A program made the position numbers and the translations under genes. Shown here one piece after another: positions 24,801 through 47,447 of a stretch of DNA of 64,000 nt. Below the pieces are notes generated by a model. That model did not search any database and was not told where the DNA came from. It saw only the letters and a list, made by a program, of their open reading frames with translations. The number at the start of each line of letters is the position of its first letter. Position 1 is the stretch's first letter. This stretch comes from Sebaldella termitidis ATCC 33386 (GTDB lineage: Bacteria; Fusobacteriota; Fusobacteriia; Fusobacteriales; Leptotrichiaceae): positions 3,441,989 to 3,505,988 of the forward strand of contig NC_013517.1 in the NCBI RefSeq assembly GCF_000024405.1, written 5' to 3'.

Positions 24801-24877
24801 TGGTGCCTAGAAGAGGACTCGAACCTCCGACCCTGCGGGTATGAACCGCATGCTCTAGCCAGCTGAGCTATCTAGGC
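24801..24877 (-). tRNA. tRNA-Met (elongator, CAU)
   Basis: A full cloverleaf of 77 nt with encoded CCA: acceptor GCCTAGA/TCTAGGC, D arm TAGCTCAGCTGG, anticodon loop TTCATAC, T arm GGAGGTTCGAGTCCTC. The G1-C72 pair marks it as elongator. It is the last of three tRNAs in one transcript. Confidence 0.95.
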
Positions 24878-24882
24878 TTATT

Positions 24883-24959
<77 letters not shown>

Positions 24960-24982
24960 TCAACCATTGTTATTTATTAAAG

Positions 24983-25070
24983 TGGTGCCTCGGGCCGGAC
25001 TTGAACCGGCACGGTGATAATCACCACAGGATTTTAAGTCCTGTGCGTCTACCTATTTCGCCACCAAGGC
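24983..25070 (-). tRNA. tRNA-Leu (UAA)
   Basis: Class II tRNA of 88 nt with encoded CCA: acceptor GCCTTGG/CCGAGGC with a G-U type pair, anticodon loop CTTAAAA (UAA), long variable arm TGGTGATTATCACCG, T arm GCCGGTTCAAGTCCGGC. First gene of the tRNA unit, behind a strong promoter. Confidence 0.95.
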
Positions 25071-29552: not shown

Positions 29553-30809
29553 TTAGTTAAACATAGATTCATATTTAGATATCAAATAATAGTAGTTTAG
29601 ACGTGTTGATATATAGTCTATTTTGCTTTCTCTCAGCTTTACCTCAGCATTCAGGAGATCTCTTAATGTTATCAGATTATACTGATATCTCTCTGTTTCA
29701 AGTTTATATACCTCTGCCGCTGTTTCTACTGCCTTTTGTTTAGTTTCCAGAACCTTTTCGCTGTGAACAATGTCCATATATGTTGATTTTAATGCAGTCC
29801 TTACATCTTCCAGTACATTGGTCTGCTTGAGCTTACTTATTTCAAGGTTATTTTTTGCTTTCTTTACATCATCCTTGGCACTTCCCCAGTCGAATAACTG
29901 CCATTTAAATGTAACACCAAAAGTCATAAAAGAATTTTCTCCCTTAAAACTGTCTGAAAATTCCGGCTGTGAATCTGTTCCATAAGATACACTTGCATTT
30001 ATTGTCGGATAATAAATTGACTTCGCACTGTCGATATTAATTTTTGATATTTCAGACTGTAATTCTGAAATTTTATATTCTGAATTTTCATCTTCCAGTC
30101 TTATGATATCTTCTGTATAATTGATCTTGCTGCTGAACTTATCCGCTACAGTAAATGGAACTACCTCAATATCACTTCCTACCCTCATTCCCAGAGCTTT
30201 TATCAGATTATCCTTTGCTATATTTACCTGATTCTGATTATCCAGAATCTGTGCCTTTACTTCCAAAACTGATCTTTCTGCTTCAAGAAGATCAGGTCTT
30301 GTAGCCAGACGCACATTATATTTCTCTTTTATTATTCTTAAGTTTTCATTCAGTGATTTTTCTGAGCTTTGAAGAACTTCTGTCTTGTTTTCATAATTCA
30401 GAACCTCTATATACATATCTATCACATTCAGGACTGTGTCCTTCTTACTTTTCTCCAATTGATACATGGATAAATTTTTAGCTGTTTTAGCTGTTTTTAT
30501 ACCCGCTGCAATTTTACCTCCCTGAAATATCGGCTGCTCCAGACTGATTGCCTGACCGTGCTTACCATCAGGGACTTGTGCATTAGATCCTTCAGCAGTA
30601 AAAAACATCTCATTGGATATGAAATTCACTTTAAAAAATGAGTCTTTCCATGATTTTCTAACATCCAAATCGCTGTTTTCAAGGTTTTTCATCTCTATTT
30701 TAATGTCTCTGTTATTTTTCAAAGCCATTTCAGCTGCTTCCTGAATAGTGATTTTTTCTGCTGCCAGAGCACTTAAGCACAGGGTAAGATACACCGCTAA
30801 CTTTTTCAT
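29553..30809 (-). CDS. TolC-family outer-membrane efflux channel
   Basis: The product has 418 residues. A signal peptide (to LSALAA) is followed by two TolC-type helical repeats: ITIQEAAEMALKNNRDIK and later EYKISELQSEISKINIDSAKS, with YYPTINASVSYG in strand regions. It ends in a short tail KYESMFN. It forms the outer-membrane exit duct for the RND pump in the same operon. It overlaps the tetR stop by 4 bases (ATGA). Confidence 0.92.
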   Translation of the reverse strand: MKKLAVYLTLCLSALAAEKITIQEAAEMALKNNRDIKIEMKNLENSDLDVRKSWKDSFFKVNFISNEMFFTAEGSNAQVPDGKHGQAISLEQPIFQGGKIAAGIKTAKTAKNLSMYQLEKSKKDTVLNVIDMYIEVLNYENKTEVLQSSEKSLNENLRIIKEKYNVRLATRPDLLEAERSVLEVKAQILDNQNQVNIAKDNLIKALGMRVGSDIEVVPFTVADKFSSKINYTEDIIRLEDENSEYKISELQSEISKINIDSAKSIYYPTINASVSYGTDSQPEFSDSFKGENSFMTFGVTFKWQLFDWGSAKDDVKKAKNNLEISKLKQTNVLEDVRTALKSTYMDIVHSEKVLETKQKAVETAAEVYKLETERYQYNLITLRDLLNAEVKLRESKIDYISTRLNYYYLISKYESMFN

Positions 30810-31411
30810 ATTTCCTCCTTTTGTATTCCGTGTAATATCAAAGTCGTCAGATCTTCAATAATTCCTTCTTTGTTTTGCTCTATAAATTCAGCTTCTCTCT
30901 CTTTCAGATTTATCATTATAAATGTATGTATAGACGAGATTGTATATTCTATTACCAGGGTTTTGTTAAAATACCTTTGATTCTCACCCAGCTTTTCGAA
31001 TATATTTTCTCTGACAAACTTTACATCCACTTCTTTGAAACTCGGAAGCTTTCTTTTTATTTCGTCTACTTTGAAAAAGTCATTAAATATGACCTGTTGA
31101 ATTAGAGCAGTCACATTTTTATTAACCATGGTTTTCTCTATTGAGGTTTTCAGATAGAGCCTCAGGGTACTTTCAGCATCCAAATCCTTAGTTTCTTCTG
31201 CCGTTTTATCCAGTATTATACAATGCTGTTCAAATAAATAGTTTAGTATCCCCAGCAATAAAGACTCTTTACTGTCAAAATATGTGTAAAAACTCCCCTT
31301 AGATATACTCAAGGAATTGGTAATCTCCTCTACTGTTGTTTTCAAATATCCAGCTTCACCAAACAGCTCGATTGCCTTTTCCAAGATTTTCTTTTTTTTG
31401 TCTTCCTTCAT
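30806..31411 (-). CDS. TetR-family regulator of the RND operon
   Basis: The 201-residue protein has the TetR helix-turn-helix at about 28-48 (TTVEEITNSLSISKGSFYTYFDSKESLL). The C-terminal ligand-binding part is variable and gives no clue to the effector. It is the first gene of tetR-tolC-adaptor-RND-PII-like and lies behind a promoter with two GAC-N6-GTC palindromes, so autorepression of the whole operon with relief by a pump substrate is likely. AGGAGG lies 11 bases before ATG 31411. Confidence 0.9.
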   Translation of the reverse strand: MKEDKKKKILEKAIELFGEAGYLKTTVEEITNSLSISKGSFYTYFDSKESLLLGILNYLFEQHCIILDKTAEETKDLDAESTLRLYLKTSIEKTMVNKNVTALIQQVIFNDFFKVDEIKRKLPSFKEVDVKFVRENIFEKLGENQRYFNKTLVIEYTISSIHTFIMINLKEREAEFIEQNKEGIIEDLTTLILHGIQKEEI

Positions 31412-31690: not shown

Positions 31691-31719
31691 TTGACTTCAA
31701 GGCATTAATATTATAGAAT
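31691..31719 (+). promoter_or_regulatory. trp operon promoter
   Basis: TTGACT (31691-31696) and TAGAAT (31714-31719) with 17-bp spacing, about 38 bases before the leader peptide start. Confidence 0.75.
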
Positions 31720-31757
31720 CTAGGAAATAAAAAACAATAAAAACAAAGGAGAGAATT

Positions 31758-31829
31758 ATGAAAAGAAATTTTTGGAGCTGGTGGAATAATATTTTACAAT
31801 TTAATATTTTTTCTGCCCTTACCAAATAA
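31758..31829 (+). CDS. trpL: trp operon leader peptide
   Basis: A 23-codon ORF starts at ATG 31758 behind AAAGGAG. Codons 6, 8 and 9 are TGG (the run is Phe-Trp-Ser-Trp-Trp), which is the hallmark of a tryptophan attenuator: the ribosome stalls here when charged tRNA-Trp is scarce. Two terminator hairpins follow before trpE. The stretch 31802-31812 can pair with the 5' arm of the first terminator, giving a candidate antiterminator that would be free when the ribosome waits at the Trp codons. Confidence 0.9.
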   Translation: MKRNFWSWWNNILQFNIFSALTK

Positions 31830-31856
31830 TTTTTGTGATTCTTTTATATTTATATT

Positions 31857-31894
31857 AAAGAGATATTATCAAATCTGGTGATATCTCTTTTTTT
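31857..31894 (+). terminator. trp attenuator terminator 1
   Basis: AAAGAGATAT/ATATCTCTTT, 10-bp perfect stem, 14-base loop, then TTTT. The 5' arm (31858-31868) is complementary, with two G-U pairs, to TAATATTTTTT at 31802-31812. Confidence 0.88.
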
Positions 31895-31896
31895 AC

Positions 31897-31936
31897 AAAG
31901 AGTTTCCTTATATTTGCGGGAGACTCTTTTTATTTT
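31897..31936 (+). terminator. trp attenuator terminator 2 (tandem)
   Basis: AAAGAGTTTCC and GGGAGACTCTTT form a second stem (one G-U) with a loop TTATATTTGC and a TTATTTT tail, directly after terminator 1 and before the trpE ribosome binding site. It may give a second stop for readthrough. Confidence 0.8.
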
Positions 31937-31955
31937 ACAAATCCGGAGGCCGATT

Positions 31956-33215
31956 ATGATCATAAAACCAAAGTGTGAAGCTGCTGACTGCTTCAAATAT
32001 ATAAAGAAAGTTTTTCCTAACAGCTATCTTGCCGAAGATAACAGACAGATAATAATAGGAATTGATGTTGTCTATTTTGATTCTGACACATATACCTATT
32101 CAGATCTGCGTGAATTGGTAAAATCAAGAAAAAGCATTGCAGAATTTTCCGGATTGTTCGGAGTATTCTCATACGAGACTATCCATTATTTTGAAAAGAT
32201 AAACAGAAAAGAAAAAGCGGAATATGACTATCCTGAATTTATATTTTCCGATGCCGGAGCCTATCTTCATTTTGACAAAAAAAATTCTGAATTCAGCTTT
32301 TTTGGAGATACAGAAAAATATTCAGATTTACTTTTACAACTGAAAGATGTGGCGTCTGCCGAAAAGTCCGAAAATAATAAAAGCTTCAAAATTCTCAGTA
32401 ATGAATCCGAGAAAAAAAATATTTTTCTGAAGAATGTTAATGAAGCCAAGGAATATATAAAAAAAGGCGATATTTTCCAAATTGTGCTGAGTTCTCAGAT
32501 AATAATCGAATCAGACTATGATCCTTATGATTTCTATATGGAACTTACAGAAAAAAATCCTTCGCCGTATATGTTTTATTTCCCCACACCATACGGAACA
32601 GTCATAGGCTCAAGTCCGGAAATACTTTTGAAAATAGAGGACAAACAGATTTTCATAGCTCCCATTGCAGGAACAAGACCCAGAGGCCGTGACCCGGAGG
32701 AAGACAAAATATTAGCCCGTGAACTTTTAAATGATGATAAAGAGCTGGCAGAACACAGAATGCTTATAGATCTTGCACGAAATGACATAGGAAAGTTCAG
32801 CAGCCCCGGCAGTGTGAAAGTAAAGAATCCTATGCATGTAGAATACTTCCAGCATGTTATGCACATTGTAAGCGACGTTTACGGAGAGCTTGCTGACGGA
32901 ACAGATATTTTTGACGTTATTTCTACTGCTTTTCCAGCGGGAACCTTGAGCGGAGCCCCGAAAATCAGAGCAATGGAAATAATTGCAGAGCTTGAACTCC
33001 ATAAGAGAAATATCTACGGCGGCGGAATAGGCTTTCTTCATTATAACGGGAATTCACAGATCGCCATTATTATAAGAACAGCATTTTATAAAGATAAAAA
33101 ATACTATATACAGTCAGGAGCCGGAATCGTATATGATTCAGATCCGGAAAAGGAATATCTTGAAATACTGCATAAAAGAAAGTCGCTCACAGGTATACTG
33201 ACTGATTGTAAATAA
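31956..33215 (+). CDS. trpE: Anthranilate synthase component I
   Basis: The 419-residue enzyme makes anthranilate from chorismate with ammonia from TrpG. The chorismate-binding part shows the family blocks ENPSPYMFYF, IGSSPEILLKI, IAGTRPRGRDPEED, LIDLARNDIGK, FPAGTLSGAPKIRAMEII, and a final QSGAGIVYDSDPEKEY. The open frame extends upstream through the terminators, but CGGAGG before ATG 31956 fixes the start. First structural gene of the operon. Confidence 0.96.
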   Translation: MIIKPKCEAADCFKYIKKVFPNSYLAEDNRQIIIGIDVVYFDSDTYTYSDLRELVKSRKSIAEFSGLFGVFSYETIHYFEKINRKEKAEYDYPEFIFSDAGAYLHFDKKNSEFSFFGDTEKYSDLLLQLKDVASAEKSENNKSFKILSNESEKKNIFLKNVNEAKEYIKKGDIFQIVLSSQIIIESDYDPYDFYMELTEKNPSPYMFYFPTPYGTVIGSSPEILLKIEDKQIFIAPIAGTRPRGRDPEEDKILARELLNDDKELAEHRMLIDLARNDIGKFSSPGSVKVKNPMHVEYFQHVMHIVSDVYGELADGTDIFDVISTAFPAGTLSGAPKIRAMEIIAELELHKRNIYGGGIGFLHYNGNSQIAIIIRTAFYKDKKYYIQSGAGIVYDSDPEKEYLEILHKRKSLTGILTDCK

Positions 33216-33249
33216 AAATGCATACTAATTTTTTAAGGAGGAAAATCTT

Positions 33250-33843
33250 ATGATTTTATTAATAGATAACTATGATTCTTTTGTTTTCAACGTAAAGCAG
33301 TATGTCGAGGATATCAGCGGGAAAAGAGTCCATACTGTAAGAAATGACCGCATTACCATTAAAGATATTAAAAAGCTAGACCCTTCGGGAATAATACTCT
33401 CACCGGGACCTAAGCACCCTGCTGACAGCAATATATGCCTTGATATCCTGAAAAGTATTCCGGATATCCCCGTACTTGGAATCTGCCTCGGTCATCAGGC
33501 TGTGGGCTACTCCTGCTCAGGTCTGATAAATCGTCTCAGCATACCGGTTCATGGAAAAGTTTCCAATGTAAATATTATAAAGAAAGAAAAACTGTTTCAA
33601 AATATCCCGGAAAAGTTTTCAGTTATGCGCTATCACTCATTGTATATATCAGAAAATAATTTTCCGGAAGAACTTGAAATTTTGGCAAAAACAGATGACG
33701 GCATAATTATGGCAATAAAGCATAAAACTAAAGAAATATACGGAGTACAGTTTCATCCGGAATCATATTTTACAAATTACGGAAAGGAAATTCTGAAAAA
33801 TTTCCTGTCTATCTCATATAATCAGGAGGAATATTCATGTTAA
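33250..33843 (+). CDS. trpG: Anthranilate synthase component II (glutamine amidotransferase)
   Basis: The 197-residue class I amidotransferase supplies ammonia to TrpE. Catalytic C79 lies in VLGICLGHQAVGY, and the His-Glu pair in VQFHPESY. The N-terminal LIDNYDSFVFNV and SPGPKHPADS are typical. It is separate from TrpD here. AAGGAGG precedes ATG 33250; its end overlaps trpD by 7 bases. Confidence 0.96.
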   Translation: MILLIDNYDSFVFNVKQYVEDISGKRVHTVRNDRITIKDIKKLDPSGIILSPGPKHPADSNICLDILKSIPDIPVLGICLGHQAVGYSCSGLINRLSIPVHGKVSNVNIIKKEKLFQNIPEKFSVMRYHSLYISENNFPEELEILAKTDDGIIMAIKHKTKEIYGVQFHPESYFTNYGKEILKNFLSISYNQEEYSC

Positions 33844-34856
33844 GAAAATATATTGTAAAGTTACAGGATAAAGAAAGATTATCAAATAATGACTTTGAAG
33901 AAATAGTAAAAATTATCGCAGATAAATCATATGATGAAAATCAGCTGAGTGCGCTCCTTGTACTTATCTCGGAGGAAAGCCTCACACCAGAGGGGTTAGC
34001 CGCTTTTGTAAAAAACATTCTGAAATACAGCTCCACTTTTGAAGATAAGAAAGCTATGATTGATGTATGCGGAACAGGCGGTGACGGCTTCAAAACCATT
34101 AATATTTCCACGGCAACAGCATTTATATGCGGAGCACTGGGAGTAACCGTGGCAAAACACGGCAACAGAGCAGTTTCCAGCAGAAGCGGAAGCAGCGACA
34201 TTCTGGATATTCTTAATGTTCCTCTGGAAAGTTCTATTGATAAACAGCAGCATATATTAAAGAATCAAAATCTTTCTTTCTTTCATGCTCCGTATTTTCA
34301 TAAACTGGTGGGAGAAGTAAAAACTCTTCGGGAAAAACTCGGAGTAAGAACAGTTTTTAATATTCTGGGACCCCTGCTTCATCCAAACCTCTCGCTGAAA
34401 TACCAACTTGTAGGAATTTATCATAAACCTGTACAGAGTCTTTATGCCGAAACACTCCGGCATCTGGGACGGGAGCATGCACTTATCGTAAGAGGAAATG
34501 ATGGTCTTGATGAGATATCCATTACTGCGGACACTGAGATCATTGAGGTAAAACAAAATGAAATAAAGAAATTTTCCGTTTCTCCGGAAGAATATGGTTT
34601 TAAAAGAGCCCCGCACAATGAAATCACTGGCGGAAATCCCGGAGAAAATGCCGAAATCCTTATTAACATACTAAACGGCAGGGAAAAAGGAGCTAAAAGA
34701 GACATTGTCGTATTGAATTCAATGTTTGCCCTTTACACATCAGATTTTTCCGATTCTCCGGAAAAAGCAAAAACAATAATAGAAAATGCTTTGGACAGCG
34801 GTCATATATATGATTATTTCAGAAATTACATTGATTTTTTAAAGGAGGTAAGCTAA
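33837..34856 (+). CDS. trpD: Anthranilate phosphoribosyltransferase
   Basis: The 339-residue enzyme transfers phosphoribose from PRPP to anthranilate. The glycine-rich CGTGGDGFKTINIST, KHGNRAVSSRSGSSD and the NILGPLLHP block are all present. ATG 33837 overlaps the trpG end, indicating translational coupling; its stop shares a base with the trpC start. Confidence 0.96.
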   Translation: MLRKYIVKLQDKERLSNNDFEEIVKIIADKSYDENQLSALLVLISEESLTPEGLAAFVKNILKYSSTFEDKKAMIDVCGTGGDGFKTINISTATAFICGALGVTVAKHGNRAVSSRSGSSDILDILNVPLESSIDKQQHILKNQNLSFFHAPYFHKLVGEVKTLREKLGVRTVFNILGPLLHPNLSLKYQLVGIYHKPVQSLYAETLRHLGREHALIVRGNDGLDEISITADTEIIEVKQNEIKKFSVSPEEYGFKRAPHNEITGGNPGENAEILINILNGREKGAKRDIVVLNSMFALYTSDFSDSPEKAKTIIENALDSGHIYDYFRNYIDFLKEVS

Positions 34857-35590
34857 TGTCAAATATACTGCATAAAATCAAGCTGGAAAGGGAAAAACAG
34901 CTTTCAGAGGAAAAAAAAATACTTTCAAAGCCGTCGCTTATAAAAGCTTTGAAGAAAGACGGCATTCAGATAATAGGTGAGATAAAAAGAGCTTCTCCGT
35001 CCAAAGGGACTATTGCAAAAGATACCTTTGACATAGAAAAACAGCTCGATTATTATGTAAAAAACAATATCGCAGCTTTTTCAATCCTGACAGAAAATCA
35101 TTTTTTTAAAGGACAAAATGAAGACCTCACTTTTGCGGGAAAGCTTCATCCTGAAATACCTGTATTAAGAAAGGATTTTATTTTCGATCCGTTTCAGGTG
35201 GCACAGGCAAAATTTATAGGAGCAAGCGCAGTACTGCTAATAGTAAAAATGCTTTCAGATATTGAACTTATTAATCTTCATAAACTGGCTCTTGATCTGG
35301 AGCTGGAAGTGCTTGTGGAAATTCATAATGAAGAAGATCTGGAAAGAGCTTTAAGAATCCCGGAAATTAAGCTTTTGGGAATTAACAACAGAAATCTTGA
35401 TACCTTTGAAACTTCGCTTTCTGTAACAGAAAATCTTTTTCCAAAAATTCCTGCCGGAAAAGATATTACTATTATAAGTGAAAGCGGGGTTCATACACAG
35501 GAAGATTTAAAATTTTTAGAATCTATAGGTGTTGACGGAGTCCTTATAGGGGAATCGCTTATGAAAACCAGTCTTTTGAATCCAAAATAA
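34856..35590 (+). CDS. trpC: Indole-3-glycerol-phosphate synthase
   Basis: The 244-residue TIM barrel closes the indole ring. Visible: EIKRASPSKGTI, PVLRKDFIFDPFQV, GINNRNLDTFE and SESGVHTQEDL. It is a stand-alone TrpC, not fused to TrpF. TAATG overlap with trpD and an AAAGGAGG site. Confidence 0.96.
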   Translation: MSNILHKIKLEREKQLSEEKKILSKPSLIKALKKDGIQIIGEIKRASPSKGTIAKDTFDIEKQLDYYVKNNIAAFSILTENHFFKGQNEDLTFAGKLHPEIPVLRKDFIFDPFQVAQAKFIGASAVLLIVKMLSDIELINLHKLALDLELEVLVEIHNEEDLERALRIPEIKLLGINNRNLDTFETSLSVTENLFPKIPAGKDITIISESGVHTQEDLKFLESIGVDGVLIGESLMKTSLLNPK

Positions 35591-35618
35591 AATACTTCTT
35601 TATCGGATGGGAGAAATT

Positions 35619-36209
35619 ATGAGTAAACTAAAAATATGCGGAATCAGGTCTATGGAAGAAATACTTGAACTTGCAGAACTTGATATCGATTATTTCGGAT
35701 GTATTTTTGCCAAAAGTCCCAGACAGGTTTCTGCGGATCTTGCAAAAAAAATAACAGAAACAGCACATCAATATAATAAAAAAACAGTCGGTGTCTTTGT
35801 TAACTCATCAGTAGATGAGATAAGAGAAATAAGAAATGCTGCAAAGCTTGATATTATCCAGCTTCATGGTGATGAAAGTCCGAATTTCTGTAAAAAGCTC
35901 GGCGGAACAATCTGGAAAGTATTCAGGGTTTTTGACAAAATACCTGATATCTTACCTTATAAAGAGTATATTGAATATCCTCTTTTTGATACCAAAGGTA
36001 AGGAGCACGGCGGAAACGGAATTGTTTTTGACTGGAGCATACTGGAAAATCTGAATTATCCTTATATTCTCGCAGGAGGACTGTCAGAAAAAAATATAAA
36101 GGATGCGCTGAAATATAACCCGGCAGTTCTTGATGTCAACAGCAGGGTTGAAATAAATAACAGAAAAGATAAAAAACTTATACTCGACATAATTAATATT
36201 GTTAAATAA
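35619..36209 (+). CDS. trpF: Phosphoribosylanthranilate isomerase
   Basis: The 196-residue TIM barrel catalyses the Amadori rearrangement before TrpC. The family start KLKICGIRSMEE with its catalytic Cys, IQLHGDESPNFC, and the end ILAGGLSEKNIKDAL ... DVNSRVE are clear. GGGAG selects ATG 35619 over ATG 35607. Confidence 0.95.
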   Translation: MSKLKICGIRSMEEILELAELDIDYFGCIFAKSPRQVSADLAKKITETAHQYNKKTVGVFVNSSVDEIREIRNAAKLDIIQLHGDESPNFCKKLGGTIWKVFRVFDKIPDILPYKEYIEYPLFDTKGKEHGGNGIVFDWSILENLNYPYILAGGLSEKNIKDALKYNPAVLDVNSRVEINNRKDKKLILDIINIVK

Positions 36210-36223
36210 GAAAGGAATAAAAT

Positions 36224-37405
36224 ATGAATAAAAAATCTTATTATGGAAATTTCGGGGGACAGTTTGTTCCTGAAACTATTATGAATGCACTGATTGATCT
36301 TGAAAATGAATATGAAAAAACCATTGATGATAAAAAATTCAGAGACGAATTTCAAAGTCTGCTGAAAGACTTCGTAGGAAGAGAAACTCCTTTATACCAC
36401 GCAAAAAATCTGAGTGAATTTTACGGGCATAATATATTTTTAAAAAGAGAAGATCTGAACCACACAGGAGCTCATAAAATAAATAATGCACTTGGTCAGG
36501 CTCTTCTTGCCAAAAGAATGGGTAAAAAGAAAGTAATTGCTGAAACAGGTGCAGGACAGCACGGTGTTGCCGCAGCTACTGCCGCTGCTCTTCTGGGTAT
36601 GGAATGTGATGTATATATGGGAGCTGTAGATATCGAAAGACAAAGGCTGAATGTTTTTCGTATGGAACTCCTCGGAGCCAGAGTCATTTCAGTGGAGGAA
36701 GGGCTGAAAACCCTGAAAGAGGCTACTACCGCTGCTATTCAGGCATGGGTCAATGAAGTAGAGGATGTATTTTATATTATTGGTTCCGTAGTAGGACCAT
36801 ATCCATATCCAAAAATGGTAAAAGATTTTCAGTCTGTCATCGGTGATGAGACAAAAAAACAAATGGAGAAATATGGAAATACTGACTGTATTATTGCCTG
36901 TGTGGGCGGCGGCAGTAATGCCATGGGTATTTTTTCCGCTTTTCTTGATAATGAAGATACGGCATTGTACGGTATTGAAGCCGGAGGAAAAGGAATTGAC
37001 ACAGAAGAGCATGCAGCTACCCTTAGTATGGGAAGTCCGGGAATACTCCACGGTATGAAAACTTATGTTCTTCAGGATAAATACGGGCGGATAAATCCTG
37101 TTCACTCTATATCAGCAGGGCTTGATTATCCCGGAGTCGGTCCCGAACACTCTTATCTTTTTGATACTAAAAGAGTAACATATGCGGCGGTTACTGATGA
37201 TGAAGCTATAGAAGCACTTCTGCTGCTCACACAAAAAGAAGGAATAATTCCCGCTATAGAAAGTGCACATGCAGTGGCCTATCTAAAAAAACTATGCCCT
37301 GTATTAAAAGAAAAGAAAAACATTGTTGTAAATATTTCAGGACGCGGAGATAAAGATATGCATACAGTATTTTCAATATTAAAAGGAGGAGAAATCCATG
37401 AATAA
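36224..37405 (+). CDS. trpB: Tryptophan synthase beta chain
   Basis: The 393-residue PLP enzyme condenses indole with serine. GGQFVPET at the start, the PLP lysine in [14 protein letters not shown], the ETGAGQHG loop, and GGGSNAMG for the phosphate site mark a TrpB1-type subunit meant to pair with TrpA. AAAGGAAT precedes ATG 36224. Confidence 0.97.
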
Positions 37406-38156
37406 GCTGCAAAATATTTTTAAAGACAAGAAAAATGTAAATATCGGATATATAGTAGGCGGTTTTCCAAATATTGATTATACCAGAAAGTTTCTTCTGA
37501 ATCTGAAAAAATCACCTATAGATATTCTGGAAATAGGTATTCCCTATTCCGATCCCATAGCTGACGGAAAAATAATTTCAGAAGCTTCCTTTAAAGCTTC
37601 ACAGAATAATATTACTCCTGACACAGTTTTTGACCTTTTAATTTCTGAAAAGGAAAATATACATACTCCCCTTGTGTTTTTAATTTATTATAATCTTATT
37701 TTTGCTTACGGAATTGATCATTTTATAAAAAAATCCGTAGAAGCAGGCATAACAGGACTTGTAATTCCTGATCTGCCGTATGAAGAGGCACAGGAGCTTA
37801 TTGAGAAGCTTAATAAAAATAATATTGCCTTTATTCCTCTTATAAGCGTTACTTCACAAAACCGGATTCCAAAACTGGTTTCACAGGGAAGCGGTTTTAT
37901 ATATGCTATTGCATCACTTGGCGTTACTGGAACAAAACAGGTTTCTCCGGACAGACTTACTGAATTTATACACGAGATAAAAAAGTATACTGATCTTCCT
38001 GTTGCTATAGGCTTTGGAATAAAAAACAGGGAAGATATAATAAAGCTGCGTAACTCGGCAGACGGTCTGATAGTGGGAACCTCTATAGTCCGGCTGACAG
38101 AAAGCTATACTCCTGATGAGGTAGTTCCCAAGCTGGAGGAGTTATTCGTTGTATAG
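37398..38156 (+). CDS. trpA: Tryptophan synthase alpha chain
   Basis: The 252-residue TIM barrel releases indole from indoleglycerol phosphate. The catalytic Glu is in [14 protein letters not shown], the Asp in [12 protein letters not shown], and the phosphate site in VGFGIK-type [11 protein letters not shown]. It overlaps trpB by 8 bases and ends the operon before a strong terminator. Confidence 0.96.
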
Positions 38157-47280: not shown

Positions 47281-47287
47281 AGGATTA

Positions 47288-47447
47288 TACTCTTCGGGGC
47301 AGGGTGCGATTCCCTACCGGCGGTAAAGTCCGCAAGCTTATTTTTTTTATAAGCACGAACCGGTTAGATTCCGGTACCGACAGTTATAGTCTGGATGAAA
47401 GAAGATTTTTATGCTGCTTTCTTTCATTGCTTGATGAAAGTTTTTTT
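47288..47447 (+). promoter_or_regulatory. FMN riboswitch (RFN element) with terminator platform
   Basis: The aptamer (about 47288-47404) shows the conserved blocks TTCGGGGCAGGGTG, TTCCCTACCGGCGGTA, AGTCCGC, CCGGTTAGATTCCGGTACCGA and CTGGATGAAAGAAG. The expression platform at 47421-47447 is a terminator (CTTTCAT/ATGAAAG, then T7). GATGAAAGAAG of the aptamer end can instead pair with CTTTCTTTCAT at 47417-47427, an antiterminator that would form without FMN. FMN therefore should switch impX off. Confidence 0.96.

Follow-up and report, generated by a model that had tools for sequence, protein, structure and literature searches.

A tandem-terminator trp leader in Sebaldella termitidis and a model in which one antiterminator serves both terminators

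Main finding

The trp operon in the window (the whole 64,000-nucleotide stretch of Sebaldella termitidis DNA analysed here) is probably governed by a ribosome-mediated trp attenuator in which, according to folding models, a single antiterminator segment, R2 (about 31802-31850), would serve two intrinsic terminators, T1 and T2, in turn. The anatomy of the leader, its conservation, the lineage-specific complementarity between R2 and T2, and the dependence of this R2:T2 pairing on the state of the ribosome were all computed.

Anatomy of the leader

The features of the region are collected in Table 1. The leader ORF runs from an ATG at 31758 to a TAA at 31827-31829, and its Trp codons (31773-31775, 31779-31781 and 31782-31784) agree with the first-pass annotation, which had described three of them in four leader positions. 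The WSWW cluster here, and the Trp clusters found in 19/19 family genomes, read as the leader ORF of a trp-type attenuator. The amino-acid genes expected of such an attenuator follow downstream as trpEGDCFBA (31956-38156), with TrpF assigned from sequence alone and the best matches of TrpE and TrpC lying below the curated equivalog cut-offs. Upstream of the leader lies a divergent TetR-like gene (30806-31411, minus strand), and the start of the promoter-like site agrees with the start of the interval flagged in the earlier annotation.

Table 1. Features of the trp leader region; positions are counted from the first letter of the window
Feature	Position	Strand	Basis and remarks
Promoter-like site TTGACT-N17-TAGAAT	31691..31719	+	Consensus scan, 10/12 matches; function not implied by the match
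Leader-peptide Shine-Dalgarno GGAGA	31748..31752	+	Sequence; at the base of the R1:R2 helix 31749-31764:31830-31845
Leader peptide MKRNFWSWWNNILQFNIFSALTK, 23 aa, WSWW	31758..31829	+	ORF read from sequence; region R1
Region R2, putative shared antiterminator	31802..31850	+	Folds and cognate test; would be sequestered by R1 or free for T1, then T2
Anti-T2 outer helix	31823..31828 with 31911-31916	+	Stalled-state fold; alternative register 31809-31816 with 31916-31923
Anti-T2 inner helix, GAUUCUUU with AAAGAGUU	31837..31844 with 31897-31904	+	Stalled-state fold; alternative register 31830-31837 with 31894-31901
Terminator T1, 5' arm AAAGAGAUAUUAUCA, UGGUGA adjoining loop	31857..31890	+	Fold; position conserved in 19 genomes
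Terminator T2, 5' arm AAAGAGUUUCCU	31897..31929	+	Fold; position conserved in 19 genomes; 5' side lineage-specifically complementary to R2
trpE, first gene of trpEGDCFBA	31956..33215	+	TrpE best match below curated equivalog cut-off

RNA folding bears out the earlier claim of two terminator hairpins in series after a trp leader: T1 is a 15-bp hairpin of -16.5 kcal/mol with a U run after the stem, and T2 a 12-bp hairpin of about -14 kcal/mol with a U-rich tail, the two being separated by a gap of 6 nt. Among 21 terminator-like hairpins counted on both strands of the 64-kb window, to which this background count applies, T1 and T2 form the only pair within 40 nt. A simple terminator scanner called no site at either position, probably because its rule looks for the U run 3' of the stem, and here each stem takes that run in.

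Pairing between the leader ORF region (R1) and R2 comprises three helices, 31749-31764:31830-31845, 31771-31775:31822-31826 and 31780-31786:31811-31817. A counterpart of the R1:R2b pairing is present in other lineages, and the cognate test of R1 against R2b gives p=0.00028. In untranslated RNA the stretch 3' of the leader's stop codon holds its Shine-Dalgarno and start codon in a helix.

Within R2, the stretch 31837-31844 that takes part in the inner anti-T2 helix also pairs with the T1 5' arm, and both other genomes of the genus with a trpE have a counterpart of it. The register of R2:T2 in this genome is ambiguous, with two registers of similar energy. The 5' arm of T1 had been proposed to pair with 31802-31812 as its antiterminator; that helix exists (31802-31812:31858-31868, 11 bp, -5.3) but is a minor one, contributing 3.0 expected pairs with T1 in the stalled ensemble against 6.5 for 31830-31850, and it was rejected as the main anti-T1 element.

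R2 and T2 are matched lineage by lineage

The complementarity of R2 to T2 was assessed over nine distinct family lineages, using RNAduplex to pair each R2 with the T2s of all lineages, cut to their 5' two thirds. R2 was defined to start 11 nt beyond the first base of the final Trp codon and to extend towards T1 for at most 75 nt (in short, the leader-ORF end to about 30 nt past the stop); these limits and those of T2 were picked after first inspection and varied in a separate parameter scan. Own pairs beat swapped ones, with a mean double-centred residual of -2.8 kcal/mol that ranks first among 362,880 permutations (exact p=2.8e-6); swapping controls for composition, yet it assumes that lineages are exchangeable despite their shared ancestry, so this value is a guide. 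With only one of the three same-genus genomes kept, the cognate arrangement again ranks first, of 5,040 (1/5040), and over all parameter choices tried p lies between 3e-3 and 2.8e-6. The first-pass annotation had seen no obvious competitor for T2, a view that this lineage-specific partner overturns.

Controls point the same way. Dinucleotide shuffling of R2 gives p<0.05 in 7/9 lineages and 0.053 in an eighth, leaving L017 (0.40) as the only one of the nine without significant R2:T2 complementarity in this test. The R1:R2 pairing, included as a positive control, is recovered by the cognate test (p=0.0014). As partners of T2 over the nine lineages, neither R1 (p=0.84) nor T1 (p=0.28) is significant, and both were ruled out in that role; the same is true of the sequence controls, namely reversed R2 (0.18), reverse-complemented R2 (0.71) and a downstream segment (0.065).

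Between R2 and T1 the family shows no lineage-specific complementarity (p=0.11), since the lineages have the UGGUG motif in common. Control of T1 by R2 is instead suggested by the anatomy and by the change from CACCA/UGGUG to CACCG/CGGUG in L017.

Modelled pairing depends on the state of the ribosome

Folding models predict mutually exclusive 1:2, antiterminator and terminator structures whose formation depends on ribosome position. In the RNA left free by a ribosome stalled at the Trp codons, folded up to the T2 loop, every family lineage forms R2:T2 around a refolded T1, the expected number of pairs ranging from 5.5 to 14.7. When the whole leader is free, R1:R2 takes R2 and R2:T2 drops to 0-2 pairs in most lineages, the exceptions being L006, L012 and L021. 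In this genome T2 makes about 12 pairs with R2 in the stalled state, about 1 with the ribosome at the stop codon and 0.3 with no ribosome. The lineage-specific match follows the same pattern in full folds: with T1 present and the ribosome stalled, the cognate interaction is -5.4 versus -2.95 for swapped pairs (p=2.8e-5), and with no ribosome it is -1.2 versus -1.8 (p=0.93). A ribosome parked at the stop codon fails to mask R2:T2 in several relatives, and masking must therefore come from release and the refolding of R1:R2.

Once the transcript is full length, the equilibrium in this genome and most relatives lies with the T2 hairpin and not with R2:T2, which means that T2 would have to be disarmed kinetically. 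T1 likewise beats its own antiterminator at equilibrium, and thus both antitermination steps must be kinetic. Folding indicates that R2:T1 forms before the T1 3' arm is out. The parts of R2 that pair with T1 and with T2 overlap, and R2:T2 around a folded T1 is nested, with no pseudoknot, which implies a relay in time and not simultaneous pairing. In L027 and L029, R2:T2 persists partly even at full length, with an effect size that depends on the exact ends folded.

A proposed sequence of events

With no ribosome on the leader, or after synthesis and release of the leader peptide, R1 (carrying the Shine-Dalgarno, start codon and Trp codons) would pair with R2, leaving both T1 and T2 free; transcription would stop at T1, and T2 would catch the leakage. 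A ribosome stalled at the Trp codons would cover R1 and free R2, which would first pair with the emerging 5' side of T1 and so let the polymerase pass. Since T1, once complete, is a far more stable hairpin, R2 would be released after the polymerase has passed; T1, refolded and by then harmless, would give R2 back. R2 would next pair with the emerging 5' arm and loop of T2, enclosing the refolded T1, and the polymerase would pass T2 and reach trpE. We infer the response to tryptophan, the order of these events and the survival of R2:T2 beyond the emergence of the T2 3' arm.

A wider formulation, to which about even chances are given, is that of a relay attenuator in which each transcript uses one antiterminator segment two times: the delayed folding of the first terminator would set the segment free, and it would then be turned against the second. 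The arrangement would be fixed in one family and present in part of another, and would give a sharper on/off ratio from one sensor.

Alternative explanations for T2

One alternative is that the leader controls T1 only and that T2 acts as an unregulated fail-safe, lowering basal expression and letting polymerase through at a constant rate. Full-length folds of most genomes do favour the T2 hairpin, and four genomes of a second family (L025, L026, L030 and L037) manage with one terminator. However, a fail-safe would leave unexplained why the 5' side of T2 matches the R2 of its own leader (p=2.8e-6) and why that match is lost in the no-ribosome fold. Moreover, a strong unregulated T2 would be expected to cap the induced level of the operon, a consideration of reasoning that counts for a controlled T2. 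An unregulated T2 is thus thought unlikely.

The suggestion in the first-pass annotation that T2 may respond to a second signal (a protein, a ligand or a second peptide) has a precedent in tandem attenuators such as that of Salmonella mgtCBR, where attenuators in series can mean two inputs (PMC3641672). Here, however, the 6-nt gap between T1 and T2 has no room for an aptamer or a second leader ORF, no Rfam family or regulatory element matches the leader, and T2 has as its partner the very leader segment that is under the control of the Trp codons, so that a second signal is very improbable. A chain of antiterminators, in which disarming T1 releases its 3' arm to pair with the T2 5' arm (CUCUUU:AAAGAG, 31885-31890:31897-31902), is scarcely credible: although the 6-bp helix exists here (-3.8) and a similar one in L006, it is weaker than R2:T2, is not seen in other genera and has no lineage-specific complementarity over the family (p=0.29), on which ground the T1 3' arm was rejected family-wide as the anti-T2 element.

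Distribution among relatives

A TrpE search of 100 relatives gave 19 same-family genomes with a match, the source genome included; minus-strand trpE loci were reverse-complemented before reading. The leader, T1 and T2 are present in 19/19 of these, so that the arrangement picked out in the first-pass annotation, which had named conservation as a check, is general among trpE-bearing genomes of the family. In a second family of the order, tandem terminators occur in nine genomes (L024, L027, L028, L029, L031, L032, L033, L036 and L040) and the single terminator mentioned above in four, these being the genomes where the arrangement could be judged.

One of the nine, L040, has a leader of unrelated sequence in which, with the ribosome stalled, a single CAGGUUUUG stretch is paired successively to the ACCUG arm of T1 (10.4 bp) and the GGCCUG arm of T2 (11.6 bp); the pairing with T2 is absent in other ribosome states. 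From these folds, L040 may be an independent parallel to the shared R2 of the first family. In L031, L032 and L036, the sequence of T2 is close to that of T1, as in a duplicate that has diverged (CCUGUUCACUAUGAGCAGG against CCUAUUCAUAAUGAGUGGG), which suggests that T2 in L031 and its kin arose by duplication of T1. R2:T2 pairing is weak in this group.

Some loci carry additional sequence before trpE. In L007, a match to the TrpX tryptophan-transporter binding protein (447-1442, below the curated cut-off) lies between the tandem-terminator Trp leader and trpE, and in L015 (555-1458) and the corresponding stretch of L016, T2 and trpE lie about 0.9 kb apart with no obvious gene between them.

No comparable leader was found in a first round of scanning genome contigs, nor upstream of trpE in the other phyla that a second round returned. 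Of the TrpE proteins that the scan found beyond the family, the closest are encoded in two records titled Campylobacter (L044 and L045, 50% and 48% identity), a closeness that may reflect gene transfer. A viral-contig scan found none. In the genome itself, the other TGGNNNTGGTGG sites that were fetched showed no convincing leader, and a weak DNA match (L002) considered as a second Trp leader was rejected because it falls within an open frame of 316 codons whose product resembles a sugar kinase.

Relation to known attenuators

Textbook attenuation joins one sensor to one terminator. In the trp attenuator of Enterobacteria (E. coli trpL), adjacent Trp codons in a leader peptide, alternative 1:2, 2:3 and 3:4 pairings and a U-tract terminator precede trpE. 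The present leader shares with E. coli trpL (Rfam RF00513, Trp_leader) the Trp-codon leader, the alternative hairpins and the terminator before trpE, but differs in having two terminators and not one, in a segment 2 with two successive partners, and in a 1:2 stem that contains the leader's own Shine-Dalgarno and start. The RF00513 covariance model does not match the leader at its gathering score or at E up to 5, nor does the T-box riboswitch model, and below threshold Rfam gives only chance-level matches there.

In Salmonella mgtCBR, two ORFs sensing ATP and proline serve two attenuators in one leader (PMC3641672). That leader resembles the present one in having two attenuators governed by short-ORF translation; here, however, a single Trp-codon ORF and one shared antiterminator take the place of two ORFs and two signals, and with one Trp leader ORF and 6 nt between the terminators there is no separate sensor ORF or aptamer for each. 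In the trp attenuators of Corynebacterium and Streptomyces, UGG codons are doubled or tripled in the leader peptides, and the alternative hairpins carry conserved complementary triples (PMC1262725). Clustered UGG codons and complementary elements are thus common to both, whereas tandem terminators are not mentioned there (PMC1262725) and a further complementary element lies here in T2. The rimP-leader of some Gammaproteobacteria likewise has a second, tandem terminator accompanied by a potential antiterminator (PMC2965389), but belongs to another gene and signal, has no reported amino-acid leader peptide and has its extra terminator upstream.

The kind of system, a ribosome-mediated trp attenuator, is therefore already known, and the new element would be one antiterminator relayed to two terminators. 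A literature search that covered few subscription papers, and so leaves absence unproven, turned up neither a trp leader with tandem terminators nor a description of trp attenuation in Fusobacteria; within the same incomplete coverage, one antiterminator relayed to two terminators was not found. If the relay is true, two terminators under one antiterminator would let a leader multiply termination efficiencies without losing induction, a terminator already passed could act as a timer or switch, and ribosome-mediated trp attenuation would extend to a group for which the literature found holds no such description. The matched R2/T2 variants of the relatives would offer ready-made compensatory pairs.

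Other features of the window

Elsewhere in the window are an FMN riboswitch (47286-47410, plus strand, 109 bits) and three tRNA genes in a row (24804-25070, minus strand).
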